Assembly: GCF_016623495.1 (NCBI RefSeq)
Contig: NZ_JAEHHL010000008.1
Location: 124,001 to 188,000, forward strand
Reading direction: 5' to 3'
Origin: Thermohalobaculum xanthum
GTDB taxonomy: Bacteria > Pseudomonadota > Alphaproteobacteria > Rhodobacterales > Rhodobacteraceae
DNA length: 64,000 nucleotides
The notes under the pieces were generated by a model. It made no database searches. It was not told where the DNA came from and worked only from the letters and a program-made list of their open reading frames with translations. Of this stretch, positions 4,094 to 19,050 are shown in pieces; position 1 is the stretch's first letter, and the number at the start of each line of letters is the position of its first letter. A program made the translations under genes and the position numbers.

Positions 4094-5815
4094 ATGGAGC
4101 CGGCAGTTGAGCGGGTCGAAGGCAACTTGGCGCACCGGCGCGGCGATTTTCCCACGCTGACGGCTGCGCTCGACTACGCCGCGCGCGGCACGGGCAGCAT
4201 GCGCTTCCATGGTCCGCGCGGCGAGCTGGTCGAGGACCTGAGCTACGCGCGCCTCGCCGACGAGGCACGCGAGGCGGGTGCCCGCCTGCTCGGCCTCGGG
4301 CTCGAGCCAGGCGACCGCGTCGGCCTGATCGCCGAGACCGACGGCGACTTCATGCGCGGGTTCATGGGCTGCCTGCATGCGGGCCTCATCCCCGCGCCGA
4401 TGCCGCTGCCCGCGGCATTCGGCTCGCGCGAGGCCTATGCCGAGCAGATTCGCCGGATCGGAGCGGTGGCGGGCATTCGCGCCGTTCTGACCCCCGAGGT
4501 CATCCGCGATTGGGTGGTCGACGCCTTCGCCGGATCGGGCCTCGTCTACACGGGGACGCTCGGCGCAATCCCCGGCGAGCCGCGCCCCCTTCCGGCCGGC
4601 ACGCCTGCCTCCGACGCCATCGCCTACCTTCAGTTCTCGTCCGGCACCACCAGCCTGCCCAAGGGCATCGCCGTGAGCCACGCCGCGATGATGGCCAACA
4701 TCCGCGCGATGGCCGAGCACGGACTGGACATCACCGCGGACGACCGCGGGGTGAGCTGGCTGCCGCTCTACCACGACATGGGCCTTGTCGGCTGCATGTT
4801 CGTCCCAATCGCGGCCCAGATGCCGATCAGCTACTACGCGACTCGCGATTTCGTGCGCCGCCCAGGCCTGTGGCTCAAGCTGATCTCGGACACGCGCGCG
4901 ACGCTCTCCTACGCGCCCTCCTTCGGCTACGATCTCGCCGCACGGCGGGCGAAGGTCGACGGGCTCGACCTCTCCAGCTGGCGCATTGCCGGGATCGGCG
5001 GCGACATGATCAAGACGGGAACGCTCGCCGCCTTCGCCGAGGCGTTTGCCTCGGCCGGCTTCGATGCGCGCGCCTTCCTGCCGAGCTACGGCATGGCCGA
5101 GGCGACGCTGGGCCTGACCTTCGCGCCGCTGGGCCAGGGCTGCCGCGCGGTCAGCGTCGAGCTCGCACGCCTCGATCGCGGCGAAGTCGCACCCGCCGAG
5201 GCCGGCAGCCCCGGCGCGCGCAGTTTCGCGGTTTGCGGGTCGGCCCTGCCGGAGCACGAGGTGATCATCGCCGACGAGACGGGCGCGCCGCTCCCCGCTG
5301 GGCGGGTCGGTCACATCCTCGCACGCGGACCCAGCCTGATGACCGGCTATTTCGGTGACGAGCAGGCCACCCGGGCCGCGCTCTCGGCCGATGGCTGGCT
5401 CGACACCGGCGATCTGGGTTTCTTCGACGGCGACGAACTGGTGGTCACCGGACGCGCCAAGGATCTGATCATCATCAACGGCCGCAACATCTGGCCGCAG
5501 GACATCGAGTGGGCGATCGAGAGCGGCGCCGAGGGTGTCCGCGCCGGCGGTGTCGCGGCCTTCGGGGTCACGCCGTCTGACGGCGACGGCGGCACTGCCG
5601 AGGAGACCGTTACCGTGGTCGCCGAGTGCCGCGTGTCGGACCCCAACGCGCGGGCCACACTGCGCGAGCATATCCATGCGCTGGTTCGCGAGCGGATCGG
5701 CATCGAGGTCGAGGTGACGCTGGCCGGCCCCGGCGTGCTTCCGCGCACCTCGTCGGGCAAGCTGAGCCGTGCGCGGGCCCGCGAGATGTTCCTCGCGGGC
5801 GTCTTCGCGGCGTGA
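4094..5815 (+). CDS. Fatty-acyl-AMP ligase / acyl-ACP synthetase of the ceramide cluster
   Basis: A 573-residue ANL-superfamily enzyme. The P-loop motif FSSGTTSLPKG lies at ~181-191, SYGMAEATLGLTF is the A5 region, GWLDTGDLGFFDGDELVVTGRAKDLIIINGRNIWPQDIE is the A7-A8 hinge (split here for reading only), and a lysine lies in the C-terminal RTSSGKLSR. The overall look is that of FAAL/FadD-like enzymes that load fatty acids onto carrier proteins. With an ACP and serine palmitoyltransferase downstream it probably supplies the acyl-ACP for long-chain-base or ceramide synthesis, as the acyl-ACP synthetase of the Caulobacter ceramide locus does. A GGGAGAGG ribosome-binding site precedes the ATG. The stop overlaps the next start (GTGA). 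Confidence 0.85.
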   Translation: MEPAVERVEGNLAHRRGDFPTLTAALDYAARGTGSMRFHGPRGELVEDLSYARLADEAREAGARLLGLGLEPGDRVGLIAETDGDFMRGFMGCLHAGLIPAPMPLPAAFGSREAYAEQIRRIGAVAGIRAVLTPEVIRDWVVDAFAGSGLVYTGTLGAIPGEPRPLPAGTPASDAIAYLQFSSGTTSLPKGIAVSHAAMMANIRAMAEHGLDITADDRGVSWLPLYHDMGLVGCMFVPIAAQMPISYYATRDFVRRPGLWLKLISDTRATLSYAPSFGYDLAARRAKVDGLDLSSWRIAGIGGDMIKTGTLAAFAEAFASAGFDARAFLPSYGMAEATLGLTFAPLGQGCRAVSVELARLDRGEVAPAEAGSPGARSFAVCGSALPEHEVIIADETGAPLPAGRVGHILARGPSLMTGYFGDEQATRAALSADGWLDTGDLGFFDGDELVVTGRAKDLIIINGRNIWPQDIEWAIESGAEGVRAGGVAAFGVTPSDGDGGTAEETVTVVAECRVSDPNARATLREHIHALVRERIGIEVEVTLAGPGVLPRTSSGKLSRARAREMFLAGVFAA

Positions 5816-6783
5816 GCGAGGCGCTCACGGGCGGCACGACCTCTGGGCTTGCGGCCGTCACCGGCGCGACCGGCTTTCTCGGCGCGCACGTCATCGAGGC
5901 ACTCGCAACGCGCGGCTGGCGGCTCAGGGTTCTGACGCGCCGGCATCCCGCCTTCTCGCACGCCGGTGCCCCGGTCGAGGTCGTCCCGGGCGATCTCGCG
6001 GACGCGGCCGCGCTCGACCGGCTGGTCGAGGGGGCGGACGCGGTCATCCATCTTGCCGGCGCCGTGCGGGCGCGCAACCCGGCCGGCTTCCTGGCGGCGA
6101 ACGCCGAAGGAACCGGCCGGCTCGCCGCGTCGTGGCGGCGCCTCTCGCCGCGGGCGCATTTCGTGCTCATTTCGTCGATGGCGGCGCGCGAGCCCGAGCT
6201 GTCGCCCTACGCAGCGTCCAAGCGTGAGGGCGAGGCGCGCCTCGTTGGCGAGGCCGGTGCCGAGGGCGGATTCACCATCCTCCGCCCCGCAGCCGTCTAC
6301 GGTCCCGGCGACCGCGAGACCCTCGGCATCTTCCGCGCCGCGACATTGCCGGTGCAGCCGATGCTCAACCACCCCTCGGCCCGGCTCTGCCTGGTGCACG
6401 GTGCCGATGTCGCCCGCGCGGTTGCCGCGATCGCCGAAATGGCGCCAGCGCGGCAGGTGCTCGAACTCAGCGATGCGCGTCGCGAGGGATATTCCTGGCC
6501 CGAAATCGCCGCGGCCGCGGCCGTCGCGCTGGGACATCGCCCCCGACCGGTGCAGGCGCCGCGCGCGCTGCTCGCCCTCGTCGCCCGCATTGGCGACATC
6601 GCGGCAGCGCGGGGCGCGGGGACAGGCATGCTGACCACGGCCAAGCTGCGCGAGATGCGCCATCCCGACTGGTCCTCTGGCCCCGAGGCACAGCCGCCCG
6701 CGGCGATCTGGCAACCCGGAATCACGCTCGATCAGGGCTTCGCGACGACCATTGCGTGGTACCGGGAACGGGGATGGCTTTGA
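5812..6783 (+). CDS. cerR: NAD-dependent epimerase/dehydratase-family reductase, CerR-like
   Basis: The GTG at 5812 overlaps the TGA of the ligase (GTGA), giving 323 residues; a longer upstream frame would run through the ligase. The extended-SDR features are TGATGFLG at ~17-24 (NAD(P) Rossmann), VIHLAGAVRA, LISSMA and the catalytic YAASK, followed by RPAAVYGPGDRE. In Caulobacter an SDR of this type encoded beside spt and acp reduces the 3-keto group of oxidised ceramide. The shared order (ligase, SDR, ACP, SPT) is the reason for the name; the fold alone would only support sugar epimerase or steroid-dehydrogenase-like function. Confidence 0.75.
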   Translation: MSEALTGGTTSGLAAVTGATGFLGAHVIEALATRGWRLRVLTRRHPAFSHAGAPVEVVPGDLADAAALDRLVEGADAVIHLAGAVRARNPAGFLAANAEGTGRLAASWRRLSPRAHFVLISSMAAREPELSPYAASKREGEARLVGEAGAEGGFTILRPAAVYGPGDRETLGIFRAATLPVQPMLNHPSARLCLVHGADVARAVAAIAEMAPARQVLELSDARREGYSWPEIAAAAAVALGHRPRPVQAPRALLALVARIGDIAAARGAGTGMLTTAKLREMRHPDWSSGPEAQPPAAIWQPGITLDQGFATTIAWYRERGWL

Positions 6784-6839
6784 CTGGCGCATCCCGATGA
6801 AATGGCGCGCCGATCCCGTCGCGCGCAGTCGATCACGCG

Positions 6840-6863
6840 TTTCATGTCAATTCGCGAATGAAA
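6840..6863. promoter_or_regulatory. Inverted repeat, possible operator upstream of the nucleotidyltransferase
   Basis: TTTCAT (6840-6845) and ATGAAA (6858-6863) are perfect arms, and between and overlapping them lies the perfect palindrome ATTCGCGAAT (6850-6859). It sits in the 178-bp gap before the gene at 6962. The AT-rich arms stand out against the local composition. No cognate regulator is recognised. Confidence 0.3.
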
Positions 6864-6941
6864 TCGCTGCCATTTGTGAGAAGGCGTGAGCGGTTCGAGG
6901 CTTGAGTGGCGAAAAATTGTAACTATTCTGTCGTCAAAATT

Positions 6942-6960
6942 GAGGAGAGAGCGGTTCCTC
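6942..6960 (+). other. Possible ribosome-binding-site-masking hairpin
   Basis: GAGGA (6942-6946), the ribosome-binding site of the gene starting at 6962, can pair with TCCTC (6956-6960) across a 9-nt loop. The stem ends one base before the ATG, so translation may depend on opening it. Only five pairs; a weak prediction. Confidence 0.3.
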
Positions 6961-6961
6961 C

Positions 6962-7750
6962 ATGACAAATGCTGTGATCTTGAGCGCCGGGCAAGGCAAG
7001 CGTCTCGCCCCGCTGACGGATACGCGTCCGAAATGCCTCGTGAAGGTCGGCGGACAGCCGGTCCTCTATTGGCAGCTTCGCGCGCTTGCCGCCGCGGGGG
7101 TCGAGGACGTTACCATCGTGACGGGCTTCGGCGCCGAGATGGTCGAGACGGCCGTCCGCACGATGGACCTGCCGCAGCTGCCCGAGTGCCTCTACAACCC
7201 GTTCTTCGCGGTCGCCGACAACATCGGGTCGTGCTGGATCGCGCACGAGCGCTTTGGCGAGGACACGATCCTGCTCAACGGCGACACGATCGTCGACCCG
7301 CGAATCCTGCGGCGCGTGCTGTCCGAGGCGGTCGATCCGATCAGCGTCACCATCGACCGCAAGTCGGGCTATGACGACGACGACATGAAGATCCGCCGCG
7401 AGGGCCGCCGCCTCACCGCGATCGGCAAGACGCTGAGCGCGCCGGTCGATGGCGAGTCGATCGGCCTGCTGCGTTTCCTTGGCGATGGCGGCGAACGCTT
7501 CGTCTCGGCCATGCGCACGGCGCTGAGCGACCAGGCGGCGCTCAAGCGGTGGTATCTTTCGATCATCGATCAGGTGGCGCAGACTGGGGCTGTCGGTACC
7601 GTCTCGATCGAGGGCCTTCCCTGGACCGAGATCGACTTCCCGCGTGACCTGCCCATCGCGGAGAGCCGCGTGACCCGTTTCGACTGGAGCGGCGCACATG
7701 CCGGTGTCGGCGTTGCCGCGAGCCTTGGCTCACCGCAGGGCGGCGCCTGA
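6962..7750 (+). CDS. Sugar/choline-phosphate-type nucleotidyltransferase (LicC-like)
   Basis: 262 residues of the NTP_transferase fold. The N-terminus AVILSAGQGKRLAPLTD is the G-x-G-x-R nucleotide loop, RPKCLVKVGGQPVL follows with the binding lysine, and LLNGDTIVD carries the metal-binding aspartate. The short length and ADNIGSCW segment resemble LicC/phosphocholine cytidylyltransferases. In this locus it may make a CDP-activated polar alcohol (for example from a phospho-alcohol) for the CDP-alcohol phosphotransferase at 12129; that link is inference. It lies between the SDR and the ACP, after a 178-bp gap that could hold its own promoter. Confidence 0.75.
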   Translation: MTNAVILSAGQGKRLAPLTDTRPKCLVKVGGQPVLYWQLRALAAAGVEDVTIVTGFGAEMVETAVRTMDLPQLPECLYNPFFAVADNIGSCWIAHERFGEDTILLNGDTIVDPRILRRVLSEAVDPISVTIDRKSGYDDDDMKIRREGRRLTAIGKTLSAPVDGESIGLLRFLGDGGERFVSAMRTALSDQAALKRWYLSIIDQVAQTGAVGTVSIEGLPWTEIDFPRDLPIAESRVTRFDWSGAHAGVGVAASLGSPQGGA

Positions 7751-7799
7751 TCTGGACACGAGACGTGCGGAGCATTATCTGCGACGCCTCACGATCGTC

Positions 7800-7830
7800 G
7801 CTGGCCCGGGCGTTGGACGCCCCGGCCAGC
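7800..7830 (+). terminator. Strong hairpin between nucleotidyltransferase and ACP genes
   Basis: Two 14-nt arms (7800-7813 and 7817-7830) pair with a single mismatch around a 3-nt loop, 50 bp after the stop of the nucleotidyltransferase. No clean U-tract follows, so it may be an attenuator or transcript stabiliser rather than a full terminator. It would let the acp-spt pair be expressed at a different level from the genes upstream. Confidence 0.45.
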
Positions 7831-7891
7831 GCAACACCTTTGGCTTAGCGGCGCGACCACGCGCGGGCTGCGCCTCATGAATTGAAAGACG

Positions 7892-8146
7892 ATGGGCATG
7901 ACCACGGCCGACGAGATCGAAGCGCGCATTCTTGATCTGCTCTCCGCCAAGGTGAAGTCGGAGACCGCGGTGACGCGCGAGACGAACATCGTCGCCGACA
8001 CCGGCCTCGACTCGGTCAGTGTCATGGACTTCGTGCTCGAGCTCGAGGACGAGTTCGACATCAACATTCCGCTCGACCGGATCGCCGAGGTGAAGACGGT
8101 GGCCGATCTGGCGAAGGCAGTGCAGGACCTGGGCAAGACGAGCTGA
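7892..8146 (+). CDS. acpR: Dedicated acyl carrier protein of the ceramide cluster
   Basis: 84 residues, acidic, with the phosphopantetheine site GLDSVSVMDF (Ser41) and a helix II rich in Glu/Asp (LELEDEFDI), typical of type II ACPs. Another ATG two codons in is equally possible as start. The gene is 48 bp upstream of serine palmitoyltransferase and downstream of an acyl-AMP ligase, so it most likely carries the acyl chain condensed with serine. In Caulobacter a specialised ACP encoded beside spt is required for ceramide formation; the symbol is given by that analogy. It is not the housekeeping acpP, which would sit with fabD/fabG/fabF. Confidence 0.85.
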   Translation: MGMTTADEIEARILDLLSAKVKSETAVTRETNIVADTGLDSVSVMDFVLELEDEFDINIPLDRIAEVKTVADLAKAVQDLGKTS

Positions 8147-8194
8147 GGGCGAAGAACCCCGGGCAGCGACCCGAAGTGGGGAAGGAACGAGACG

Positions 8195-9508
8195 ATGGGA
8201 CTCAAGGACAGGATTGCCGCGGTCGAGGCAAATTACGGGCGGTTGCGCGCACTGGGCCGCGACCCCAGCCGACTCGAGTTCCAGAACGTCTGGTCGCCGA
8301 CCGAGGCAACGCTCGAAGGCCGCCCGATGATGTTGTTCGGAACCAACAACTATCTGGGCCTGACCTTCGATCCGAACGTGCTCGAGGCCGCCACCGCCGC
8401 GACCCGCGCCCTGGGTTCGGGCACCACCGGCTCGCGCATCGCCAACGGCAGCTATGGCGGCCACAAGGCGCTCGAGGCCGAGATCGCTCGCTTCTACGCC
8501 AAGCAGCACTGCATCGTGTTCTCGACGGGCTACGTCGCCAATATCGGCATGATCACCGCGCTCGGCGGCAAGGACGACGTGCTGCTGATCGACGCCGACA
8601 GCCATGCCTCGATCTATGACGGCTGCAAGATGGCCGATGCCGAGACCATCCGGTTCCGCCACAACAGCCCCGAGGACCTGGCCAAGAAGCTGCGCCGCCT
8701 CGAAGGGCACCCGGGCGACAAGATCATCATCGTCGAGGGCATCTACTCGATGCTGGGCGACACCGCCCCGCTGGCCGAGTTCGCGGCCGTCAAGCGCGAG
8801 GCCGGCGACAACGTCTACCTGATGGTGGACGAGGCGCATTCGCTGGGCGTGCTGGGCGAATCGGGCCGCGGCCAGTGCCAGGCAGCCCATGTCGAGGACG
8901 ACTGCGACTTCATCGTCGGCACGTTCTCGAAGAGCGTGGGCACCATCGGCGGCTACTGCGTGTCGAATGTCGAGGGCTTCGACTGGATCCGCTCGTTCTG
9001 CCGCCCCTACATGTTCACCGCGTCGATGACCCCCGGCACGGTCTCGACCGCGCGCGCCGCCTTCCGGCGGATGGCCGAGCGACCCGAGCTTCGCGCCAAG
9101 CTGTGGTCGAATTCGGCCGCGCTCTTCCGCGGCCTGGGCGATCTGGGCTTCGAGACCGGCCCCGAGGTCAGCCCGGTCGTCGCCGTGAAGCTGCCGGCGC
9201 CCGAGGTTGCCGTGGCGCTCTGGAACCGCCTGATCGACGAGGGCGTCTACACCAACATCGCGATCCCGCCGGCCACGCCCAACGCGCTCTCGCTGCTTCG
9301 GGTCTCGGTCTCGGCCGCGCACTCCGAGGCGCAGATCGAGCGGGCCCTGGGGGTATTCGCCTCGGTCGGTGCCGAGCTCGGCATCATCGAGCCGGGCACG
9401 GCGCGCGGCGAGCGTTTCCAGGTGATCACCGGAGGCGCCGCTGCCAAAGAAGCCGGGCGAACACGAACGGCGCAGCAAGGATCGGCCAACGCCGCTGCCA
9501 CCCGCTGA
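8195..9508 (+). CDS. spt: Serine palmitoyltransferase (alpha-oxoamine synthase family)
   Basis: 437 residues, a PLP fold-type I enzyme. It shows FGTNNYLGLTFDP at ~48-60, ALGSGTTGSRIANG at ~72-85, VDEAHSLGVLG at ~211-221 (Asp and His contacting PLP) and the Schiff-base lysine in GTFSKSVGTIGG (Lys246). TFSKSVG and the missing biotin-cluster context point to serine palmitoyltransferase rather than 8-amino-7-oxononanoate synthase. It condenses serine with a C16-type acyl thioester to 3-ketosphinganine, the first step of sphingolipid synthesis, in the cytoplasm. The last ~30 residues form an Ala/Thr-rich tail overlapping the opposite-strand gene by 83 bp. A ribosome-binding site (GGGGAAGGAACGAG) precedes the ATG. 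Confidence 0.9.
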   Translation: MGLKDRIAAVEANYGRLRALGRDPSRLEFQNVWSPTEATLEGRPMMLFGTNNYLGLTFDPNVLEAATAATRALGSGTTGSRIANGSYGGHKALEAEIARFYAKQHCIVFSTGYVANIGMITALGGKDDVLLIDADSHASIYDGCKMADAETIRFRHNSPEDLAKKLRRLEGHPGDKIIIVEGIYSMLGDTAPLAEFAAVKREAGDNVYLMVDEAHSLGVLGESGRGQCQAAHVEDDCDFIVGTFSKSVGTIGGYCVSNVEGFDWIRSFCRPYMFTASMTPGTVSTARAAFRRMAERPELRAKLWSNSAALFRGLGDLGFETGPEVSPVVAVKLPAPEVAVALWNRLIDEGVYTNIAIPPATPNALSLLRVSVSAAHSEAQIERALGVFASVGAELGIIEPGTARGERFQVITGGAAAKEAGRTRTAQQGSANAAATR

Positions 9509-10337
9509 GCTCGACCGGGCGGCCGCTGTGCCGCTCGACCTTTGACAAGGCATAGGCAAGGCCGCCGCGGAACGTCGCGGCGGCCTTTGTCAATCGCACG
9601 GCATTGATCAGCTTGCCGACCCGACGTCGCCGCGCCCACATCCCCTCCGCGCGCCGACGCGCCGCCGCTTTCGGGAGGGGGGCGCCGGCGATCAGTGCGG
9701 CATACGCCCCCTCGAAGAACTCCGGATGCGCGTCCAGGATCGCGTCGGCCCGCGCCGCGCTTTCGACCCGCAGCTCGGCGCCATAGGTCCGCGCATAGAG
9801 GCCGGCCCAGCAGGCGCGCCACCCTGCCCCATCCTCGGCGAAGTGCCGCGCCCACCATGCCGCCGCACCAGCCGCGGCCGCCAGTGCGTCGAGCACGGCT
9901 TCTCGCGCCGCCGCGTCGCGGGCATATGCCAGCACGACCGGCTGCGAGAACCGCGCCCACAGCGTCGTATCCCAGCTTTCGGCCCGCATCCGCGCGCCGA
10001 AGGCGGCCAGGCGCATCACCGCGACCTTGGCATGGACCGGCCCATCCTGCCCCGGCAGCTCGACATGATAGACATTGGGCGGCAGCAGGCGGCACCCGAG
10101 CGCCGCAAGCCCCGGCCCGGACCAGTCGGCGTCGCGCTCGGTCAGGCAGTAGAAATCCAGCAGCCCGCCGGCCGCGGTGTCGCGCAGCATGTTGCCGTAG
10201 AAGAGCACCGCCAGCACGCCCGGCCGCGTGGCCAGATGCGCGGCCATCGCGGCCGCCGCGCCGTGCAGCGGCCGGTCGGCCGCAGCCGCGACAAGCGCGC
10301 GAAGCTCCGGCCCGGGCGGCTGCCCGGGTGCCGTCAC
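9426..10337 (-). CDS. Conserved protein of the ceramide cluster, nucleotidyltransferase-like motif, function unknown
   Basis: 303 residues from a GTG at 10337 that overlaps the hydroxylase stop (GTGA). I do not recognise the family with confidence. VLAVLFYGNMLRDTAAGGLLDFYCL resembles the strand and G-S/N loop of minimal nucleotidyltransferases (split for reading; the conserved positions are the YGN and the D of LDFY). Later come KVAVMRL, two Trp-rich segments and a basic C-terminus with WARRRRVGKL and VERHSGRPVEL. No signal peptide. The last 83 bp run antisense to the 3' end of spt, and a terminator-like hairpin for spt lies inside it. It is the last gene of the minus-strand headgroup block, so a role in headgroup activation or transfer is likely but unproven. 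Confidence 0.65.
   Translation of the reverse strand: MTAPGQPPGPELRALVAAAADRPLHGAAAAMAAHLATRPGVLAVLFYGNMLRDTAAGGLLDFYCLTERDADWSGPGLAALGCRLLPPNVYHVELPGQDGPVHAKVAVMRLAAFGARMRAESWDTTLWARFSQPVVLAYARDAAAREAVLDALAAAAGAAAWWARHFAEDGAGWRACWAGLYARTYGAELRVESAARADAILDAHPEFFEGAYAALIAGAPLPKAAARRRAEGMWARRRRVGKLINAVRLTKAAATFRGGLAYALSKVERHSGRPVELSGWQRRWPILAAPFVFARLLWQRRLR
9560..9590 (+). terminator. Rho-independent terminator-like hairpin for spt inside an antisense gene
   Basis: A perfect 10-bp GC stem (9560-9569 with 9576-9585) and a 6-nt loop, followed by TTTGT, lies 51 bp past the spt stop. The flanks TTGACAA (9542-9548) and TTTGTCAA extend the pairing with a bulge. The same bases are codons of the opposite-strand gene. 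Confidence 0.55.
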
Positions 10338-11158
10338 TTGCGCTCGCTCATGCTCTCGAGGATCTGGTCGGCGCGCCGGGTGGCCGCCTCGAAACGATCC
10401 TCGAAATCGGCGATGTTCTTCTTCGGCTCCTTGTAGAACGCCGTGAACTTCATCGCCCGGATGAACAGCTGTGTCACCATCCGCGCCGGCCAGCGCATCG
10501 GCCGGTCGAAGTCGAACAGCAGGATGACGCGCTCCTCGTCGGTCTCGTTCCAGACCTCGTGCTCGTAGGTGTCGTCCAGCACGATCACCTTGCCCGCCGC
10601 CCAGGCGCGGATCTCGTCGCCGACGCGGATGCGGCACTTCTCGCGCTCCTGCGGGATGATCAGCCCCAGATGCGCGCGCACGATCCCCTTGGTCACGCCG
10701 GTATGCGCCGGGATGTGGTAGCCCGGCGCGAGGATCGAGAACCACGCCGTCTGGATCATTGGCACCCGCGACAGGATCTCGGCGGTCACCGGCGCCTGGC
10801 GGCAGTTGCGCTCGAGCCGCAGGCCGAAGCCATAGAGGATGAAGGTGCGCCAGTTCTTGGCCGTGGCGATGCGGTACTGGTCGGGCGAGATCTCCTGGAA
10901 CGCCGGGATCGCCTCGCGAAACTTGAGGATCTCACGCGCTTCCGCCTCGATCTCCTGCCAGCGATCCTCGAACTCCTTCAGGAAGGGGAAATGCTCGTTG
11001 CCGATGAAGGGTGTGTCGGGCACCAGGCTCTGGCGCGCCTGGAACGACGCCATCCAGCGCGTGAGCCGCTTGCCGAGGCGCTTGACGCGCTTTCGGATCG
11101 GGCTCTTCAGGGTTGCCGGCTTGGCCCCCGGCGCGGGCGCGGGCTGCATCTGGTTCAT
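10334..11158 (-). CDS. Aspartyl/asparaginyl beta-hydroxylase-family dioxygenase (LpxO-like)
   Basis: 274 residues. The basic N-terminus (SPIRKRVKRLGKRLTRW) could bind membrane. The double-stranded beta-helix core shows GYHIPAHTGVTKGIVRAHLGL (iron His in AHTG and the RAHLGL 2-oxoglutarate strand) and VLDDTYEHEVWNET with the second iron His and DDTYEHEV signature. Family members use Fe(II) and 2-oxoglutarate; LpxO members 2-hydroxylate the acyl chains of lipid A. Between the lipid kinase and the GTGA-coupled unknown gene in this cluster, the likely substrate is the ceramide acyl chain or long-chain base. That substrate is inference; family membership is clear. Confidence 0.85.
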   Translation of the reverse strand: MNQMQPAPAPGAKPATLKSPIRKRVKRLGKRLTRWMASFQARQSLVPDTPFIGNEHFPFLKEFEDRWQEIEAEAREILKFREAIPAFQEISPDQYRIATAKNWRTFILYGFGLRLERNCRQAPVTAEILSRVPMIQTAWFSILAPGYHIPAHTGVTKGIVRAHLGLIIPQEREKCRIRVGDEIRAWAAGKVIVLDDTYEHEVWNETDEERVILLFDFDRPMRWPARMVTQLFIRAMKFTAFYKEPKKNIADFEDRFEAATRRADQILESMSERK

Positions 11159-11205
11159 GCGCGTCTCATATGCCCACGCCCGGGAAAAGTCGAGCGCGGG
11201 GGCGC

Positions 11206-12132
11206 TCAGGCATGCACGAATGTGACCGAGCGGGTCACCGAGAACCGAACGCGTCCCTGCGGGCCCGCGGCGAAGCGCTCGCCATCGATCACCAATCCGC
11301 CCTCGAGCGCGAGATCAAGCCGCTCGGCGCGGCCCGAGCGGTAGCCGGCCTCGCCCATCCACCGGCGCGGCCGGCCCATCAGCGCGAAGGGTGCGGCCAG
11401 CACCAGCCGCCGCGCCGGCGCCGCGACGTCAAGCCAGCGCAGGCCCCCCTCGCCCTCGCCCCAGAAGGGGTTGAGCCCCATCACCAGCCGGCCGGGCAGG
11501 CTCGTCACCAGCCCCGCGAAGCGCGGCCCGCCGGGCAGCTCTTGGCCATCCACCCGCAGCGAGGCGGGCACGCCGCGCCGGATCGCCGCCGCCTCGCGCC
11601 CGACCAGCGCACGACGCAGCATCGACAGGACGGCGAGCGCCACCTGACCGCCGCCGCGCGCCGCGATCTCCTCGGCGGCAAGCCGCGTGCCTGTCTCGTA
11701 GACGCCCCAGCCGGCGATGAAACCGCGGACCGTTGGCGCGCCCTCGCGCTCGATCTCCAGCATGTCGAGCCGGCGGTCGGACAGCTTTCCGCCACGCGCC
11801 GCCGCGATCAGCTGCGCGAGGCCCTCCTCCCCGCGCGCAGCGCCGGTCTTGCGGGCGATCAGGTTTGTGTTGCCATGCGCCAGCAGGCCCAGCCTCGGCA
11901 GAGCGCCGTTCCAGATGTCGGGAAGGCGCGTCACCACCTCGCGAACCGTGCCGTCGCCGCCATCGAGGATCAGCAGATCCGTCCCCGCCGCGTGCAGCGC
12001 GGTCAGCGCACCGGTCAGCTCGTCGAGGCTCCGCGTCTCGTGGAACAGGACGCCCGCGGGCGGCGCGCCCGAGGCGGCGCGCCGGTTGCGCGTGCTTGCG
12101 CGGTTGCGGATCAGGCCGATCGACAATGTCAC
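11206..12132 (-). CDS. cpgB: Diacylglycerol/ceramide kinase-family lipid kinase (CpgB-like)
   Basis: 308 residues from a GTG at 12132 overlapping the upstream stop (GTGA); the longer frame upstream lies in the CDP-alcohol transferase and is a shadow. DLLILDGGDGTVREV carries the GGDGT nucleotide loop of the DAGK catalytic domain, LGLLAHGNTNLIA follows, and the C-terminal lobe has VIDGERF. This family phosphorylates lipid hydroxyls. In Caulobacter the DAGK-like CpgB is a ceramide kinase used to build ceramide phosphoglycerate, and the present gene sits with spt and a ceramide-synthase-like gene, so ceramide is the preferred substrate. Diacylglycerol or long-chain base remains possible. Confidence 0.8.
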   Translation of the reverse strand: MTLSIGLIRNRASTRNRRAASGAPPAGVLFHETRSLDELTGALTALHAAGTDLLILDGGDGTVREVVTRLPDIWNGALPRLGLLAHGNTNLIARKTGAARGEEGLAQLIAAARGGKLSDRRLDMLEIEREGAPTVRGFIAGWGVYETGTRLAAEEIAARGGGQVALAVLSMLRRALVGREAAAIRRGVPASLRVDGQELPGGPRFAGLVTSLPGRLVMGLNPFWGEGEGGLRWLDVAAPARRLVLAAPFALMGRPRRWMGEAGYRSGRAERLDLALEGGLVIDGERFAAGPQGRVRFSVTRSVTFVHA

Positions 12133-13259
12133 GCGGCCGTCATCCACGAGGTGAGCGGTCCCTTGCGCCGCGCGATCTCGGCCTGCGCGACACGGACCAG
12201 GTGAACCGCGAAGCAGATACCGGTCCACCATGCCACGGCGATCAGCCCCTCGCGCGGCGCGCCGAAGATGGTGAACGCCATCAGGATCAGCAGGTTGGGA
12301 TTGCGCCGCGCGGTGATCTCGCGGAACAGGCTGTCGAAGCGGCGCCAGATATGCATCTCGATGCCATAGCGCGCGATGAACCAGCCTTCCTCGAGCCGCT
12401 GCGCGACATAGCCCCCGACGATCACCCCCATCACCAGCGCGAAGTCCTCGATGGGGTCGCCGATCGCGGCGCAGCCCACCGCCCAGGCCCACCACCAGAA
12501 CGGCGGGTGGATCAGGTCGATGCCGTGATCGAGCACATCGCCCAGTTTCGACGCGGTGACGGTCACGCGCGCCAGCTTGCCGTCGACCGTGTCGAGGAAG
12601 GTCATCACCCAGGCCACCACCAGCCCCAGCGCGAACTGCCCGGTCCAGAACAGCCAGAAGGCCAGGATCACCAGCGCGAGGCTCGCCCAGGTCACCTGGT
12701 TCGGCGTGATGCCCCTGAGCGCGCAAAAGCGCGTCACGGCCAGCGCGGGCCGCGGCCAGACATGCTTGGTGACGAGATCCGTGACCCCCTTGTAGGACGC
12801 CCCAAACAGCGCCCGCTCGACCGCCACGCGGTCCCGTGCCGGCATCACCAGCGGATCGGCCTTTTTCCTCAGCTTCTGGTCGTAGCGCCCGGCCAGCTCG
12901 ACCCCGGTGAGCGCGCGCGCGCCCGGCGCCAGCCCCTCGGCCGCGCCGTGCCCGCCCACCAGCGCCCGGGCCCAGTCCCGGCTTTCGTCGTCGATGCGGG
13001 CGCCGACCGCGCGGCCCTCGGCGTCAATCAGCACCGTGCCCGGCGCCGCCTGCGCCAGCGCGGTCAGCACGCCCGCGCCATAGACGTGATCGGCGCGCAG
13101 CAGCACGCTGGCCTCGGCCTCGTCGCCGGGGCGCATGCCCGCGCGTGGCAACTGCCGCGCCAGCCGTGCCGCGCCGCTCAGCCCGAAGGCCGCCTGCCCC
13201 TCGGGACCAATGATCGCCGCGATCATCTCCGCCAAGGCTCGCCTCTCCCGTCCGTTCAT
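12129..13259 (-). CDS. CDP-alcohol phosphotransferase with degenerate nucleotidyltransferase-like N-domain
   Basis: 376 residues. The CDP-alcohol phosphotransferase signature is complete at 223-248: D-TV-DG-KL-AR, then G240, D244 and D248. Several hydrophobic helices surround it (~187-220, 250-290, 320-350). The first ~130 residues (FGLSGAARLARQLPRAG, SVLLRADHVYG, TVLIDAEG) look like a nucleotidyltransferase fold that has lost its catalytic loop, an arrangement like the inositol-phosphate bifunctional enzymes. It would transfer a phospho-alcohol from or onto a CDP-activated partner at the membrane. In this block it is the natural enzyme for attaching a ceramide headgroup; the exact alcohol is unknown. 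Confidence 0.8.
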   Translation of the reverse strand: MNGRERRALAEMIAAIIGPEGQAAFGLSGAARLARQLPRAGMRPGDEAEASVLLRADHVYGAGVLTALAQAAPGTVLIDAEGRAVGARIDDESRDWARALVGGHGAAEGLAPGARALTGVELAGRYDQKLRKKADPLVMPARDRVAVERALFGASYKGVTDLVTKHVWPRPALAVTRFCALRGITPNQVTWASLALVILAFWLFWTGQFALGLVVAWVMTFLDTVDGKLARVTVTASKLGDVLDHGIDLIHPPFWWWAWAVGCAAIGDPIEDFALVMGVIVGGYVAQRLEEGWFIARYGIEMHIWRRFDSLFREITARRNPNLLILMAFTIFGAPREGLIAVAWWTGICFAVHLVRVAQAEIARRKGPLTSWMTAA

Positions 13260-13361: not shown

Positions 13362-14336
13362 ATGGACGGCGAAATCGTCGTCGCGCATCTGACCGACCCG
13401 CATCTCGACCTCGGTAGCCCGCGGGGCGCCGAGTTCCTGTCCAAGCGGGCCCTGAGCTGGCTGAACTGGAAGCGCAAGCGCCGCCGCATCCAGTCGCCCG
13501 CGCTGTGCCGGATGATCGTCGACGACATCCACGCCCGGTCACCCGACCTGATCGCGATGACCGGGGATCTCGTGAACTTCGCGCTCGAGGAAGAGTTCCG
13601 CCGCGGCCGCGACTGGCTCGAACGCCTCGGCCCGCCCGAGCGGGTCGCCGCAGTCCCCGGCAACCACGAGGCGCTCGCACCCGGCATGGCCGACAGGCTC
13701 GCGACCGCCTGGGGCCCTTACCTCGCCGGCGACGATGGCCAGCCCGGCTTCCCTTGGCGGCGCGAGCTCGGCCCGATCACGGTGGTCGGCATCTCAACCG
13801 CCGTCGCCACGCCGCCCTTCTTCGCCACCGGCACGGTGGGGCCGGCACAACTCGCGCGGCTCGACGCCATGCTGGGGGCGATTGCGGCCGAGGGCCGCTT
13901 CGCCCTCGTCCTGATCCATCACCCGCCGACCCCGATCACGGTCTGGCGCAAGCGGCTCACCGACGGGCCCGCCGTCTGCGCCTGCATCGCGCGCCACGGC
14001 GCTGGGCTCGTGCTGCACGGCCACACGCACAAGCCCGAACTGTCGTGGATCGACAGCCCCGCAGGCCGCATCCCCGTCCTCGGCGCGCCCTCGGCCAGCT
14101 GGAAGCCCGGCCCCAAGCGCGACGGCGCCGCGTGGCGCTGCCTGCGGCTTTCCGCCGACGCCCGCGGCTGGCGGCTGACCATGGAGGAACGCGCGGCGAC
14201 CGAGGACGGCATCGTCGCCCGCACCCCGCTCGAATTCGTGCTGCCCGCCCCGGCGGGACGCGACGCCCGCGCCCCCCTTGTGAGCGCCGAGCCAGCGGAT
14301 AGAATGCCGCGCAACGCCGCCGGGCCACGGCCCTGA
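13362..14336 (+). CDS. Metallophosphoesterase (calcineurin-like)
   Basis: 324 residues with all metal motifs in order: TDPHLD near residue 11, TGDLVNF, VPGNHEA, LIHHPP and HGHTHKP. No signal peptide or membrane helix, so cytoplasmic. It starts the plus-strand arm that diverges from the headgroup block across only 102 bp, so both arms may share control. Family members hydrolyse phosphomonoesters, nucleotides or UDP-lipid pyrophosphates (LpxH type); a lipid-phosphate or CDP-alcohol substrate fits the context but is inferred. The last ~35 residues are low-complexity. Confidence 0.8.
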   Translation: MDGEIVVAHLTDPHLDLGSPRGAEFLSKRALSWLNWKRKRRRIQSPALCRMIVDDIHARSPDLIAMTGDLVNFALEEEFRRGRDWLERLGPPERVAAVPGNHEALAPGMADRLATAWGPYLAGDDGQPGFPWRRELGPITVVGISTAVATPPFFATGTVGPAQLARLDAMLGAIAAEGRFALVLIHHPPTPITVWRKRLTDGPAVCACIARHGAGLVLHGHTHKPELSWIDSPAGRIPVLGAPSASWKPGPKRDGAAWRCLRLSADARGWRLTMEERAATEDGIVARTPLEFVLPAPAGRDARAPLVSAEPADRMPRNAAGPRP

Positions 14337-14379: not shown

Positions 14380-14814
14380 ATGCCCAACCAGACGATCCGC
14401 AACTTCGGCTGGCCCGAGACCCACATCGCCGAGACCGATCACTGGATGGTGCTGCTGCGCCCGGCCCAGCCGACGCTGGGCGCGCTGGTGCTGGCGGCGA
14501 AGTCCGACGCGACCGCATGGGGCGCCCTGCCCGCCGCCGCGCATGCCGACCTGGGCCGCGTCATCCCTGCGGTCGAGACCATGCTGCGCAAGGCCGTGGG
14601 TTACGAGAAGATCAACTATCTCATGCTGATGATGGTCGATCCTCACGTCCACTTCCACGTGCTGCCACGTTATCCCGGCAGCCACGAGGCCGAGGGGATC
14701 GAGGTCCCGGATGCCGGCTGGCCTGGCCCGCCCGCACTTGGTCAGGCGGTGACGCCGGACGCCGACGCACGCACCCGGCTGGTGGCCCGCCTCGTCGCCG
14801 CCTGGCCCGGCTGA
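14380..14814 (+). CDS. HIT-family nucleotide-binding protein
   Basis: 144 residues, with the histidine triad HVHFHVLPRY late in the chain and YEKINYLMLMMVD before it. HIT proteins hydrolyse or transfer nucleoside monophosphates through the central triad His. It follows the metallophosphoesterase by 43 bp and precedes the LptF-like gene by 10 bp, so it is in the same transcript. A clean-up function on nucleotide-activated intermediates is plausible; nothing in the sequence proves it. Confidence 0.8.
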   Translation: MPNQTIRNFGWPETHIAETDHWMVLLRPAQPTLGALVLAAKSDATAWGALPAAAHADLGRVIPAVETMLRKAVGYEKINYLMLMMVDPHVHFHVLPRYPGSHEAEGIEVPDAGWPGPPALGQAVTPDADARTRLVARLVAAWPG

Positions 14815-14824
14815 GGCGCCGCGC

Positions 14825-16045
14825 TTGTCGCCCCTCCTCTCCCGCCGGCTGGTCGACCGCTACCTGCTGCGGCTGATGCTGCCGCGCATGGGGGCGGCGC
14901 TGATCGTGACGCTGGTCGCGCTCCTGCTCGAGCGCATGCTGCGCCTCTTCGACCTCGTGACCGGCCAGGGGGCGACCATCGGCCCGGCGCTGGGCATGGC
15001 GATCAGCCTCGTGCCGCATTATATCGGCCTCGCCATGCCGGCGGCCTTCTGCATCGGCGTGCTGACCTGCCTCGCCTCGCTCAGCCAGCAGAACGAGATC
15101 GACGCGCTCGAATCCGCTGGCTGGTCGCTGCGCCGCATCGGCGTGCCCTTCATCCTCTGCGCGCTGGTGCTGATGCTGTTCAGCCTCGCGCTCTTCGGCG
15201 TGATCCAGCCCTATAGCCGCTATGCCTATTACGAGATCCGCCACTCGGTCCTGACCTCGGCCTGGAACGGCCGGATCGAGCAGGGCGTGTTCGTCGAGGC
15301 GGGCGAGGACCTCACCCTCTCGGCCGCCGCCATCGACCCCACCGGGCGCGTGCTCGACCGTGTCTTCGCGATCCAGAAGGACGTCAAGGGCGAGGTCGTG
15401 CTCACCGCCCGGCGCGGCCTCGTGGTGCCGGAAGACGGCGGCAAGACGGTCCGGCTCCTGCTGAGCGACGGCGTCGCGATGACGCCGGACGGCGGGCGGC
15501 TCGACTTCAACGAACTGGCGCTCGAGCGCCGCTTCCCGGCCGACGCGAACCCGTTCCGCCCGCGCGGCGACTCGGAGCGCGAGCTCACCATGGCCGAGCT
15601 CTTCACCCTGATGCGCGGCGAAGGCGTCCTGCCCCCCGATCCGCGCTATGCGGCCGAGTTCCATGCCCGGCTGATCCGCGCCGTCTCGCTCATCGGCGTG
15701 GCGCTCCTCGCCGTGCCGCTGGGGGTGGCGCGCAAGCGCTCTCCCGCCTGGCCACGCATCGCCATCGCCATCGGGATCCTTGCCGCCTATGACAACGTCA
15801 TCAAGATGGTCGAGAGCATGGCCGATCTCGGCAAGATCGACCCCGCGCTTGGCCTCTGGGGCCTCTGCGCGGGGTTCATCGCGCTGACCGGGCTCGTCTT
15901 CCTGCTGACGCCCGGACAGGGCGCGCTCTCGCCGGTGCGCAGCGTGCTGCGCCTGATCGACCTTGTCATCGGCGACGTGCGCCGCCTGCTGCGCCGGTCC
16001 GGCGACACGGATGAAAGCGAGGACTCCGCCGGGGCCCGCGGATGA
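14825..16045 (+). CDS. LptF/LptG-family permease, first of a pair (LptF-like)
   Basis: 406 residues from a TTG start; no ATG fits better. It has the YjgP/YjgQ layout: three N-terminal membrane segments (~18-36, 55-75, 97-120 with LASLSQQNEIDALESAGWS), a periplasmic beta-rich domain (~140-260, VFAIQKDVKGEVVLTARRG) and three C-terminal helices (~290-370). LptF/G pairs with LptB form the ABC exporter that lifts LPS from the inner membrane. This pair lies inside a ceramide cluster, without lptC/A/B or pepA nearby, so it may export the sphingolipid instead. It overlaps the next gene by ATGA. Confidence 0.8.
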   Translation: MSPLLSRRLVDRYLLRLMLPRMGAALIVTLVALLLERMLRLFDLVTGQGATIGPALGMAISLVPHYIGLAMPAAFCIGVLTCLASLSQQNEIDALESAGWSLRRIGVPFILCALVLMLFSLALFGVIQPYSRYAYYEIRHSVLTSAWNGRIEQGVFVEAGEDLTLSAAAIDPTGRVLDRVFAIQKDVKGEVVLTARRGLVVPEDGGKTVRLLLSDGVAMTPDGGRLDFNELALERRFPADANPFRPRGDSERELTMAELFTLMRGEGVLPPDPRYAAEFHARLIRAVSLIGVALLAVPLGVARKRSPAWPRIAIAIGILAAYDNVIKMVESMADLGKIDPALGLWGLCAGFIALTGLVFLLTPGQGALSPVRSVLRLIDLVIGDVRRLLRRSGDTDESEDSAGARG

Positions 16046-17088
16046 GGCTCGCCCTCTACATCTCGCGCCAGGTGGGGCTCGCGATCGCCGGCGCGGGCGG
16101 CGTCCTGCTGGTGCTCGCGCTCGGGCTTGACCTCCTCGACACGGCGACCGAGCTGCTCGACCTCGGCGGCTTCGCGGCGCTCGCGCGCTACTCGGCGCTG
16201 CGGCTCCCGCTGATTGCGGTGACGGTGCTGCCGATCGCGGTGCTGACCGGCGGCGCCATCGCCTTCTTCGCCATGGCCGCGCGCAGCGAGTTGGTGGTGA
16301 TCCGCGCCTCGGGCGTGAACACCTTGCGCATGATGCTCCTGCTCGCGCCGCTTTCGGGCCTGATCGGGCTCGGCTACGGGTATCTTTCCGACGCTCTCGC
16401 CGCGCGCGCCGAGCAGGCGCTCGTGCGCAGCTTTCCCGAGCTGGTCGGCACACCCACCGCGCGCATGGTCTGGGCGCGCGCGCCGAACGAGATCGTGCGC
16501 ATCCGCAGCTCGATTCCCTCCGGCGGGACGCTCTCGGGCGTGTCGATCTTCGACCTCGACGACGACGGGCTGATCCTCGGCCGGACCGACGCCGAGGGGG
16601 CCGAGTTCCGCGGCGACGGCTGGGAGCTGACCGGCGAGGTCACCGTCACCGGCCTCGGCGGCGTCAACGGCCCCGGCGGCAACCGTCACTGGATCACGCG
16701 GCTGAGACCCGCCGACGTGCGCACGCTTGCGGCCAAGCCCGAATTCGTCGGGGCCCAGCGCGCGGCCCAGGTGCTGGCGGGCATCGCCTATGGCGCGCGC
16801 GGGGCGCCCTTCTACCAGACCCGGCTCTGGCGCGGCTATGTCGCCATCGCGGTGCCCGCGATCATGCTGCTCTTCGCCGCCGCCGCGGGCTTTGGCCTTA
16901 TCCGCTCGGGCGGGCGCGGCTGGCTCGCCGCCGGCGGCGTGGCCACGGGGTTCCTGTTCATCGCGACCGACGGCTTCCTGATCTCGCTGGGGGCAAGCGG
17001 GGCGATGGACCCGATGCTCGCGGTCCTCAGCGCGCCGGTCCTCTTCGCCGGGCTCGGGCTGTGGAGCATCATCCTGCTCGAGGAATAG
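16042..17088 (+). CDS. LptF/LptG-family permease, second of a pair (LptG-like)
   Basis: 348 residues, ATG inside the previous stop (ATGA). N-terminal segments include VGLAIAGAGGVLLVLALGL, then ELLDLGGFAALARYSALRLP and the coupling-helix-like region ARSELVVIRASGVNTLRMM, which in LptG contacts the ATPase. The periplasmic domain spans ~125-230, and C-terminal helices lie at ~265-345. The two permeases together match an LptFG heterodimer. No ATPase is encoded in the window, so it would have to borrow LptB. Start, length and topology fit the family well; the cargo is inferred from the neighbouring ceramide genes. Confidence 0.8.
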   Translation: MRLALYISRQVGLAIAGAGGVLLVLALGLDLLDTATELLDLGGFAALARYSALRLPLIAVTVLPIAVLTGGAIAFFAMAARSELVVIRASGVNTLRMMLLLAPLSGLIGLGYGYLSDALAARAEQALVRSFPELVGTPTARMVWARAPNEIVRIRSSIPSGGTLSGVSIFDLDDDGLILGRTDAEGAEFRGDGWELTGEVTVTGLGGVNGPGGNRHWITRLRPADVRTLAAKPEFVGAQRAAQVLAGIAYGARGAPFYQTRLWRGYVAIAVPAIMLLFAAAAGFGLIRSGGRGWLAAGGVATGFLFIATDGFLISLGASGAMDPMLAVLSAPVLFAGLGLWSIILLEE

Positions 17089-17161
17089 CCCCCTTGGCCC
17101 GCGGCGCCGCAGTCTGGTAACGCTGCGCTCGACGCGCCCCAATGGAGACCCCGCGCCCCGC

Positions 17162-18298
17162 ATGCCCGCCGAGATCGAGATCCGCCCCGTCGCCACGCGG
17201 GCCGAGCGCGAGGCCTTCATCCGCCTTCCCGGACGGCTGATGGCGGATGACCCGGCCTGGGTCGAGCCGTTGCATGCCGAGCGGCGCCAGCACATCGACC
17301 CCGCGCGCAACCCGTTCTTCCGCCACGCCGAGGTCGAGCTCTGGCTCGCCTGGCGCGGGACCGAGCCGGTGGGCCGGATCAGCGCGCAGCTCGACCGCCT
17401 CGCCCCGCCGGTCGAGGGCCGGAGCGTCGGCTTCTGGGGTATGCCCGCCGCGTGCGACACCGAGACCCTCGGCGCCCTGCTCGCGACCGCCGAGCGCTGG
17501 CTCGCGGATCGCGGCGCCGGGCTCGGGCGCGGGCCGTTCTCGCTTTCGGTGAACGAGACCTCGGGCCTCCTGGTCGACGGCTTCGACACGCCGCCATACC
17601 TGCTGATGGCGCATGACCCGGCCTGGATGGGCGCCGCGGTCGAGGGCTGCGGCTGGTCGAAGGGCCGCGACCTCGTGGCCTATGTCATGGACGTCTCGCG
17701 TGGCCTGCCCGACCGGCCGCGCCGGATCGCCGAGCGCAGTCTTGCCGAGGGGGTGACGCTACGCCCGCTCGACCGCCGCCGCTTCGCCGACGAGATCCGC
17801 ATGGTCACGGCGATCTTCAACGACGCCTGGGCCGGCAACTGGGGCTTCGTGCCGCTGACCGAGGCCGAGATCGACGCCATGGCCGCCGAACTCAAGCCGA
17901 TCCTCGACTCCGAACTGGTGTGCATCGCCGAGATCGACGGCGCGCCCGCGGGCTTCATCGTGCTCCTGCCCAACATCAACGAGGCGATCGGCGATCTCGG
18001 CGGTCGCCTGCTGCCCTTCGGCTGGGCCAAGCTGCTGTGGCGGCTCAAGGTCCGCGGACTCAGGACCGGGCGCGTGCCCCTGATGGGCGTGACGCGCCCG
18101 GTCGCCGCGACCGTTCTGGGCAAGACGCTGCCGCTCCTGCTGATCTATGCGCTCGAGGAGCGGGCACGCGCGCGCGGCATCGACGAGATCGAGCTCTCGT
18201 GGCTGCTCGAGGACAACCTGCCGGTCCGCCGCCTGATCGAGTCGCTGGGCGGCCGTCTGACCAAGACCTGGCGCGTCTACGAGAAGGTGCTGGCATGA
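17162..18298 (+). CDS. bcerS: GNAT-fold acyltransferase, bacterial ceramide synthase-like
   Basis: 378 residues. The start IEIRPVATRAEREAFIRLPGRL is followed by DDPAWVEPLHAERRQHIDP-RNPFF and AEVELWLAWRGTEPVGRISA, a set typical of the long GNAT-like proteins that include Caulobacter bCerS (CC_1154). The second half has ELVCIAEIDGAPAGFIVLLP and a final GNAT strand near LSWLLEDNLPVRRLIESLGG. Bacterial ceramide synthase N-acylates 3-ketosphinganine with an acyl-CoA before the keto group is reduced. With spt, acp, ligase and SDR nearby, this completes a five-gene ceramide set. The stop overlaps the next start (ATGA). Confidence 0.8.
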   Translation: MPAEIEIRPVATRAEREAFIRLPGRLMADDPAWVEPLHAERRQHIDPARNPFFRHAEVELWLAWRGTEPVGRISAQLDRLAPPVEGRSVGFWGMPAACDTETLGALLATAERWLADRGAGLGRGPFSLSVNETSGLLVDGFDTPPYLLMAHDPAWMGAAVEGCGWSKGRDLVAYVMDVSRGLPDRPRRIAERSLAEGVTLRPLDRRRFADEIRMVTAIFNDAWAGNWGFVPLTEAEIDAMAAELKPILDSELVCIAEIDGAPAGFIVLLPNINEAIGDLGGRLLPFGWAKLLWRLKVRGLRTGRVPLMGVTRPVAATVLGKTLPLLLIYALEERARARGIDEIELSWLLEDNLPVRRLIESLGGRLTKTWRVYEKVLA

Positions 18299-19050
18299 GC
18301 TGGACCGCGCTGATCCTCGCCGGCTCGCGCGGGGCCGCCGACCCGGTCGCGCAGGCCGCAGGTGTCAGCCACAAGGCCTTCGCCGAGCTGGAAGGCCGGA
18401 CGATGCTGGCGCGCGTCGCCACGGCGCTGTCGGCGGTGCCGCAGGTCGGGCGCATCCTCGTCTCGATCGAGCCCGGCGCACCCGCCCTGCCCGCGGGGCT
18501 CGAGCGCCTCGATGCCGCCCCCTCACCCGCCCGGTCGGTGGGAGCGGCGCTCGCCACCGCCGCGCCCCCGGTGCTGGTCACGACGGCCGACCATCCGCTT
18601 CTGACCCCGGACATGGTGGCCGACTTCATCCGCGGGGCCGAGGCTGCGGGCGCCGACATCTGCGCGGGCGTGGCGACGCGGCCGGTGGTCGAGGCCGCGG
18701 GCAATCCCGCGCGCCGCACCTATCTGCGGTTCCGCGACGCCGAGGTCAGCGGCTGCAACCTGTTCGCCCTGCGCACGCCCCGGGCCGAGGCCGCGGTGCG
18801 GTTCTGGCAGCGCCTCGAGACCGAGCGCAAGAAGCCCTGGCGCATGGCCCTCGCGATCGGGCCGCTCACGCTTGCGTCCTACGCCGCGGGCCTGCTGACG
18901 ATGGCGGGTGCGGCGGGCGCGATCGGGCGCGCCGCCGGGTGCAGCGCGGCTCTGGTCACTCTCGACCATCCCGACGCCGCGCATGACGTCGACAAGCCCG
19001 CCGATCTCGTATTCGCCGAGACGCGGCTGCGCGCGCGGAAGGCAGGCTAG
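18295..19050 (+). CDS. MobA-like NTP transferase of the ceramide cluster
   Basis: 251 residues from an ATG overlapping the ceramide-synthase-like stop. WTALILAGSRGAADPVAQA is the modified nucleotide loop, with SHKAFAELEGRTML supplying the binding Lys, VLVTTADHPLLT the metal aspartate, and AHDVDKPAD near the end. These are the hallmarks of MobA-like NTP transferases. It is the third nucleotidyltransferase-type protein in 15 kb (with 6962-7750 and the N-domain at 12129-13259), suggesting nucleotide-activated headgroup building blocks. True molybdopterin guanylyltransferase is unlikely because no moa/mob genes are near. Converges on the DUF2147 gene with a 4-bp overlap. Confidence 0.75.
   Translation: MSWTALILAGSRGAADPVAQAAGVSHKAFAELEGRTMLARVATALSAVPQVGRILVSIEPGAPALPAGLERLDAAPSPARSVGAALATAAPPVLVTTADHPLLTPDMVADFIRGAEAAGADICAGVATRPVVEAAGNPARRTYLRFRDAEVSGCNLFALRTPRAEAAVRFWQRLETERKKPWRMALAIGPLTLASYAAGLLTMAGAAGAIGRAAGCSAALVTLDHPDAAHDVDKPADLVFAETRLRARKAG

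Follow-up and report, generated by a model that had tools for sequence, protein, structure and literature searches.

A complete ceramide gene cluster with a plausible novel hydroxylase for sphingolipids in a Limibaculum-type member of the Rhodobacterales

The window analysed here, a stretch of 64,000 nucleotides from Thermohalobaculum xanthum (contig C32:124001-188000 of a 4.05 Mb genome), carries an island of genes for ceramide (sphingolipid) biosynthesis. As summarized in Table 1, the five ceramide genes aasR, cerR, acpR, spt and cerS were all present with a coding-type GC content at third codon positions (GC3), and the complete set claimed in an earlier note on this DNA was confirmed by family models, GC3 and homology to Caulobacter vibrioides. 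The run from aasR to spt, within which cpgD is situated, lies on the plus strand and faces the cpg operon on the minus strand (9426-13259), and the block containing cerS, which encodes the bacterial ceramide synthase bCerS, shares the plus strand with the spt run. The earlier note was thus right about the presence of a bCerS-like GNAT block but not about its orientation, the facing block being the cpg operon. The GTG start of cerR overlaps the stop of aasR, that of cpgB the stop of cpgA, and that of cpgC the stop of an inserted hydroxylase gene (GTGA). To the left of position 4094 the island continues with a homologue of CC_1167, and a homologue of the CC_1166-type flippase is located just beyond the window edge (G000:C32:122468-123991). 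The aasR product reached 711 bits with the fatty acyl-AMP ligase model NF006624 (cut-off 600), and CpgA displayed D-x2-DG-x2-AR-x8-G-x3-D-x3-D, which we take to be the motif of CDP-alcohol phosphotransferases.

Table 1. Genes of the ceramide island in the window (percentages are identities to C. vibrioides homologues).
Gene and predicted product	Position	Strand	Evidence
Protein without Pfam or NCBIfam match	1391..2677	-	Overlaps CC_1167 homologue; island membership uncertain
CC_1167 homologue, TagF-like GT-B protein	2668..3834	-	Divergent from aasR; 35%
aasR, acyl-ACP synthetase for sphingolipid acyl carrier protein (ACP) (CC_1165 type)	4094..5815	+	AMP-binding; 49%, syntenic
cerR, ceramide reductase-type short-chain dehydrogenase/reductase (CC_1164 type)	5812..6783	+	Epimerase family; 42%, same place
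cpgD, CTP:phosphoglycerate cytidylyltransferase (CC_1152 type)	6962..7750	+	Between cerR and acpR; residues kept
acpR, specialised ACP (CC_1163 type)	7892..8146	+	PP-binding; 41%; directly before spt
spt, serine palmitoyltransferase (CC_1162 type)	8195..9508	+	NF047599, tree, solved enzymes in PDB
cpgC, predicted CTP:ceramide-1-phosphate cytidylyltransferase (CC_1161 type)	9426..10337	-	44%, same place; Tam41 fold matches
Inserted 2-oxoglutarate/Fe(II)-type acyl hydroxylase, predicted ceramide N-acyl 2-hydroxylase	10334..11158	-	PF05118, 174 bits
cpgB, ceramide kinase (CC_1160 type)	11206..12132	-	DAGK_cat; 35%, same place
cpgA, CDP-alcohol phosphotransferase, predicted CDP-glycerate:ceramide phosphoglycerate phosphoglycerate transferase (CC_1159 type)	12129..13259	-	PF01066; 49%
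Metallophosphoesterase (CC_1158 type)	13362..14336	+	Metallophos; 46%, syntenic
HIT-like protein (CC_1157 type)	14380..14814	+	56%; weak HIT match, 20.2 bits, below cut-off 21.5
lptF2, second LptF, with a presumed role in exporting sphingolipid	14825..16045	+	PF03739
lptG2, second LptG	16042..17088	+	PF03739
cerS, ceramide synthase bCerS (CC_1154 type)	17162..18298	+	50% over 376 aligned columns (378 residues), same place
MobA/CofC-like nucleotidyltransferase (CC_1153 type)	18295..19050	+	PF12804; 42%, syntenic

The spt product passed the NCBIfam equivalog model for serine palmitoyltransferase (SPT), NF047599, with 624.7 bits (cut-off 500), failed the bioF (309.9 bits, cut-off 426) and glycine C-acetyltransferase (280 bits, cut-off 460) models, and matched solved SPTs in the PDB at 5.5e-128. 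In a tree without a BioF row it grouped with 25 other alphaproteobacterial SPTs, separate from two paralogues of its own genome (SH-aLRT 99); the family genomes G001, G002, G003, G082 and G129 formed one starred group with it, with G295 outside. The candidates 8-amino-7-oxononanoate synthase and 2-amino-3-ketobutyrate ligase were thus rejected on equivalog scores and tree, branching with other alpha-oxoamine synthases (AOS) did not occur, and, judged by its sequence, the protein is a true SPT distinct from the other AOS enzymes, as the earlier note had it.

This SPT shared 92% identity with its counterpart in Limibaculum sediminis FT325. The genus Limibaculum is placed in the Rhodobacterales, Paracoccaceae, by the NCBI taxonomy, a 2024 paper mentions that a transfer of L. 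sediminis to Thermohalobaculum has been proposed (PMC11426391), and the host is a Limibaculum-type member of the Rhodobacterales. When the top four or five candidates were scored per genome, SPT was found in 5 of the 295 sampled family genomes, host included (E<=1e-85), in four of the five genomes of the genus (E<=1e-80) and in 49 of the 385 genomes sampled from the class, so that the rarity of sphingolipid genes in this family, which had also been claimed beforehand, was borne out. In the accessible part of PMC11426391, the chemotaxonomy of Paralimibaculum and Limibaculum comprises unidentified phospholipids and aminolipids, with no sphingolipid among them, which is neutral for the ceramide reading.

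Nineteen window proteins were searched by tblastn against 80 named SPT loci, which lean to close kin because they are the best 80 of at least 582 confirmed candidates; CC numbers were assigned by gene order from the published Caulobacter map (PMC11324152), with C. vibrioides DSM 9893 in place of CB15. In DSM 9893 (L086), aasR-cerR-acpR-spt are joined by the reversed cpgC-cpgB-cpgA and then by homologues of CC_1158, CC_1157, lptF2, lptG2, cerS and CC_1153, and this order is the same in the window. Homologues of CC_1167-CC_1152 were thereby recovered, largely in order, in the comparison with the Caulobacter crescentus run CC_1168-CC_1152 that the earlier note had proposed, including those of cpgD, CC_1167 and CC_1166. 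The window differs from Caulobacter in having cpgD between cerR and acpR, the hydroxylase inserted between cpgB and cpgC, so that it stands among cpgA, cpgB and cpgC side by side on one strand, and the CC_1167 and CC_1166 homologues turned round (minus strand, left) with two extra genes between them. The position of cpgD is shared with L. sediminis, Albimonas (L050), a Neomegalonema metagenome-assembled genome (MAG; L049), G001 and G003, and the Albimonas pacifica locus, in which the CC_1167 and flippase homologues are likewise turned round, represents the same cluster with neither hydroxylase nor HIT-like gene detected within the 21 kb examined. The five core genes lay within reach in 45 of the 80 loci, cpgC in 33, and the core five with cpgABC and lptF2G2 in 16, DSM 9893 among them; these counts are lower bounds because only 46 loci were 20 kb or longer. 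A second LptF/LptG pair was found in the genome on contig C12.

In Caulobacter, the genes of this cluster make ceramide phosphoglycerate (CPG) and CPG2, which carries a second phosphoglycerate (PMC11324152). AasR is an acyl-ACP synthetase with AcpR as its ACP (PMC9386255), CpgB acts as a ceramide kinase (PMC10331486) and CpgD as a phosphoglycerate cytidylyltransferase (PMC12275187) with structures available (PMC13228409); in this work by others, both the ceramide genes and the cpg genes were shown to be needed, and the activities of CpgB and CpgD were demonstrated. The suggestion that the extra genes point to a modified, exported sphingolipid thus held for the headgroup and export genes, but the claim that the set was undescribed was wrong, because these genes match the published CPG2 cluster and mostly keep its order, and the idea of an undescribed pathway was rejected. 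By homology, the remaining extra genes are the published Caulobacter CPG2 set and the new part is the inserted hydroxylase, which the earlier note had listed without singling it out as the sole truly extra gene. The ceramide cluster is real and complete. Clusters of its kind had been described before, it is rare in the family, and the inserted gene plausibly adds a new sphingolipid hydroxylase to it.

CpgD was identical to its C. vibrioides homologue at 122 of 247 aligned residues and kept all eight of the published CTP/glycerate-site residues that were checked (G12, R16, K26, N90, G111, D112, M147 and K161; PMC12275187, PMC13228409). The predicted model of CpgC (pLDDT, a model confidence score, 86.7) gave four Foldseek matches at E<=0.001, all of them to the mitochondrial CDP-diacylglycerol synthase Tam41 (TM-score about 0.5, identity 13-14%), and searching PDB sequences with a profile of CpgC returned a single match of no use (E 0.96). 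While its predicted fold resembles that of Tam41, CpgC lies in a bacterial lipid operon and has ceramide-1-phosphate as its predicted substrate. Olea-Ozuna et al. had proposed from InterPro that CpgC activates ceramide-1-phosphate (PMC11324152), and the Tam41-like fold of the model supports CDP-ceramide as the predicted product.

The inserted hydroxylase is encoded by the sole PF05118 gene in the genome. It shares PF05118 over its full length with OlsC (ornithine lipid 2-hydroxylase) and LpxO (lipid A hydroxylase), but lies well below both curated cut-offs, with 223.6 bits for OlsC NF052565 (the best NCBIfam model; cut-off 450) and 117.9 bits for LpxO NF033391 (cut-off 500), and its context and co-occurrence point to ceramide. 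The position at which OlsC and LpxO hydroxylate acyl chains is C2, so this putative enzyme is most simply read as a 2-hydroxylase of the ceramide N-acyl chain. In the family sample, homologues (E<=1e-20) were present in 14 of the 295 genomes, five at 70-100% identity (host included) and nine at 32-41%; the four other genomes with strong homologues (70-74%) are, together with the host, exactly the five SPT-positive ones (Fisher 5.6e-11, kinship ignored). In the class sample, 11 of the 13 genomes with a homologue at E<1e-40 were SPT-positive, against 49 of 385 overall (Fisher 3.1e-9, kinship again ignored). In a tree of 44 homologues, a single open fork united the window clade with the G420/G523 group and the G498-G459 group, each of them SPT-positive, and with a further, mixed group.

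The hydroxylase gene adjoins cpgC in L. sediminis, the MAG contig L048, G129, G082 and G001 (at a contig end), and has other ceramide genes next to it or close by in G295, G501, G498 and G420; among the 80 named SPT loci it was found in L047 and L048 only. In G377 two contig ends each hold a part of the gene, and the contig that ends in one hydroxylase piece also bears an LptC2-like (CC_1168) homologue (L220 7570-8133, minus strand). It was also observed that the hydroxylase seems more conserved than SPT when the loci of G295 (L132; SPT 50%, hydroxylase 74%) and G129 (L131; 62% and 73%) are compared.

Starting from the gene identities and order, the kept CpgD residues, the predicted CpgC fold and the association of the hydroxylase with SPT and cpgC, we infer the intermediate CDP-ceramide, the substrate and position of the hydroxylase, the lipid itself and its export. 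AasR would load a fatty acid onto AcpR, SPT would condense the AcpR-bound acyl group with serine, and bCerS would add the amide-linked acyl chain before CerR reduces the keto group, as in one model (PMC11087976), the reverse order having been proposed by others. The ceramide would then be phosphorylated by CpgB and activated by the Tam41-like CpgC, most likely to CDP-ceramide, and addition of a glycerate unit would give CPG, which in Caulobacter forms without CpgA (PMC11324152). CpgD would make CDP-glycerate, which CpgA would use to add the second phosphoglycerate and yield CPG2, LptF2/LptG2 and a flippase would transport this lipid towards the outer membrane, and the inserted OlsC/LpxO-superfamily enzyme would hydroxylate the amide-linked acyl chain, probably at C2. 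We consider it likely, on this basis, that the product made and exported by the locus is an anionic lipid, a ceramide phosphoglycerate that probably carries a 2-hydroxyl group.

Several observations weigh against this assignment. Besides the dispensability of CpgA for CPG just mentioned, no tblastn match to lptC2 (CC_1168) was obtained in the window or in the 20 kb to its left (L127), and the whole genome gave one LptC-family match only; CC_1168 is also missing from the orthologous clusters that have been published for N. eutropha, A. vinelandii and P. luteola (PMC11324152), and its absence was therefore not treated as disqualifying. The 18 kb contig of the same-genus genome G003 contains cerR, cpgD, acpR and spt and has no cpgABC, cerS or hydroxylase, the search for the last being confined to that contig. 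As to the hydroxylase, 41 of the 385 class genomes matched it at E<=1e-20, of which 18 were SPT-positive, and the E<1e-40 line was chosen after the list had been inspected. Furthermore, 38 of the 49 SPT-positive class genomes were without a strong homologue, and two of the 13 genomes with one, G437 and G622, were without SPT at the cut-off, that of G622 looking like OlsC; no ceramide gene was seen in the stretches examined around these two homologues, nor around the strong homologues G392:C19, G523, G491, G459, G442, G454 and G159, some of which lie on short contigs. The genome also encodes two FA_desaturase-family proteins, which leaves room for a hydroxylase of the type reported from Caulobacter, the DesA-family CC_0202, and it encodes OlsB (351.2 bits, just over the equivalog cut-off of 350), which makes ornithine lipid a possible substrate of the hydroxylase.

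The main rival explanation is accordingly that the enzyme is an ornithine-lipid 2-hydroxylase with the function of OlsC, merely housed in the cpg operon. Its best model is indeed OlsC and OlsB is at hand, but its score falls far short of the OlsC cut-off, whereas G392, which carries one copy of each type, has a second copy (G392:C6) reaching 452 bits. Among the ten homologues scanned, G622 gave 415 bits and the other eight, that of the SPT-negative G437 among them, 190-254. Considering also that the strong homologues follow the SPT-positive genomes rather than the family at large, and that the gene overlaps cpgC in the host and shares the cpgC neighbourhood in the host, G001, G082 and G129, we regard an ornithine-lipid hydroxylase as unlikely. 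Preferring a ceramide hydroxylase, we lean towards a separate clade of the OlsC/LpxO superfamily that may be dedicated, in several lineages of the Alphaproteobacteria, to the 2-hydroxylation of sphingolipid N-acyl chains. Such an enzyme would be unrelated in family to the P450s of Sphingomonas and the FA2H-like enzymes of myxobacteria described in a review (PMC10002949), and likewise to the DesA-type CC_0202, for which the position of hydroxylation was left undefined (PMC11324152). Among the literature titles and abstract openings listed, which leave out most subscription papers, none assigned this function to the superfamily, connected enzymes of the OlsC/LpxO type with ceramide, or connected sphingolipid genes with the Rhodobacterales.

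The step that forms CPG raises a further possibility, namely that the CC_1167 homologue is the missing enzyme and, as a TagF-like transferase, uses either CDP-glycerate or CDP-ceramide. A search with its profile recovered a TagF-like polymerase at 9e-5, and its model (pLDDT 86.5) gave matches of the GT-B-type fold that include TagF; however, UDP-GlcNAc 2-epimerases ranked on top with TagF lower, glycosyltransferases were matched too, and PF04464 stayed below its cut-off (19.5 against 22.1 bits). The homologue was found in 11 of the 385 class genomes, nine of which were SPT-positive (Fisher 2.0e-7, ignoring kinship), and in 15 of the 80 SPT loci, 14 of which also had cpgC, while a cofitness of 0.57 with the spt mutant is given for the Caulobacter gene (PMC11324152). 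Since 10 of the 22 cpgC loci of at least 20 kb had no CC_1167 homologue nearby, it is not an obligatory core enzyme, and its identification with the missing step appears improbable to us. The Caulobacter authors called CC_1167 probably unrelated (PMC11324152); its co-occurrence and TagF likeness argue against this.

Least probable of all is another headgroup, such as phosphoinositol or another phospho-alcohol, built with the same enzyme folds, because, although CpgA and CpgD also gave sub-threshold matches to models for inositol-phosphate cytidylyltransferase/transferase and phosphatidylinositol-phosphate synthase, CpgD keeps the glycerate-contacting M147 and K161 with all checked CTP-site residues, and the Caulobacter gene set is conserved in order.

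Around the left edge, the protein at 1391-2677 has homologues (39-41%) in the SPT loci of Hansschlegelia (L089) and Chenggangzhangella (L114), on the minus strand to the left of aasR. Between its gene and the flippase homologue lies a frame of 461 residues (1-1292, minus strand), extending about 90 bases past the window edge, with a weak methyltransferase match below cut-off and an N-terminus that is glycosyltransferase-like by eye only, and a TupA-like ATP-grasp protein (PF14305; L127 17495-18424, plus strand) is convergent with the flippase homologue. Elsewhere in the window, genes of a TroA/SitA-like metal ABC transporter at about 22.6-26.7 kb on the minus strand, which adjoin the gene of a small DtxR/MntR-like regulator (26869-27321, plus strand), were named by eye from the translations (region about 22631-27321).

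Caulobacter reportedly becomes resistant to colistin when the hydroxylation by CC_0202 is lost (cited in PMC11324152). Several bacteria are known to contain 2-hydroxy sphingolipids, and few of the hydroxylases have been named (PMC10002949). The operon-linked candidate described here thus offers a direct target for knock-out and assay. The likeness of the CpgC model to Tam41 and that of the CC_1167 homologue to TagF, in turn, bear on the step of CPG formation left open in papers from 2024, 2025 and 2026 (PMC11324152, PMC12275187, PMC13228409).

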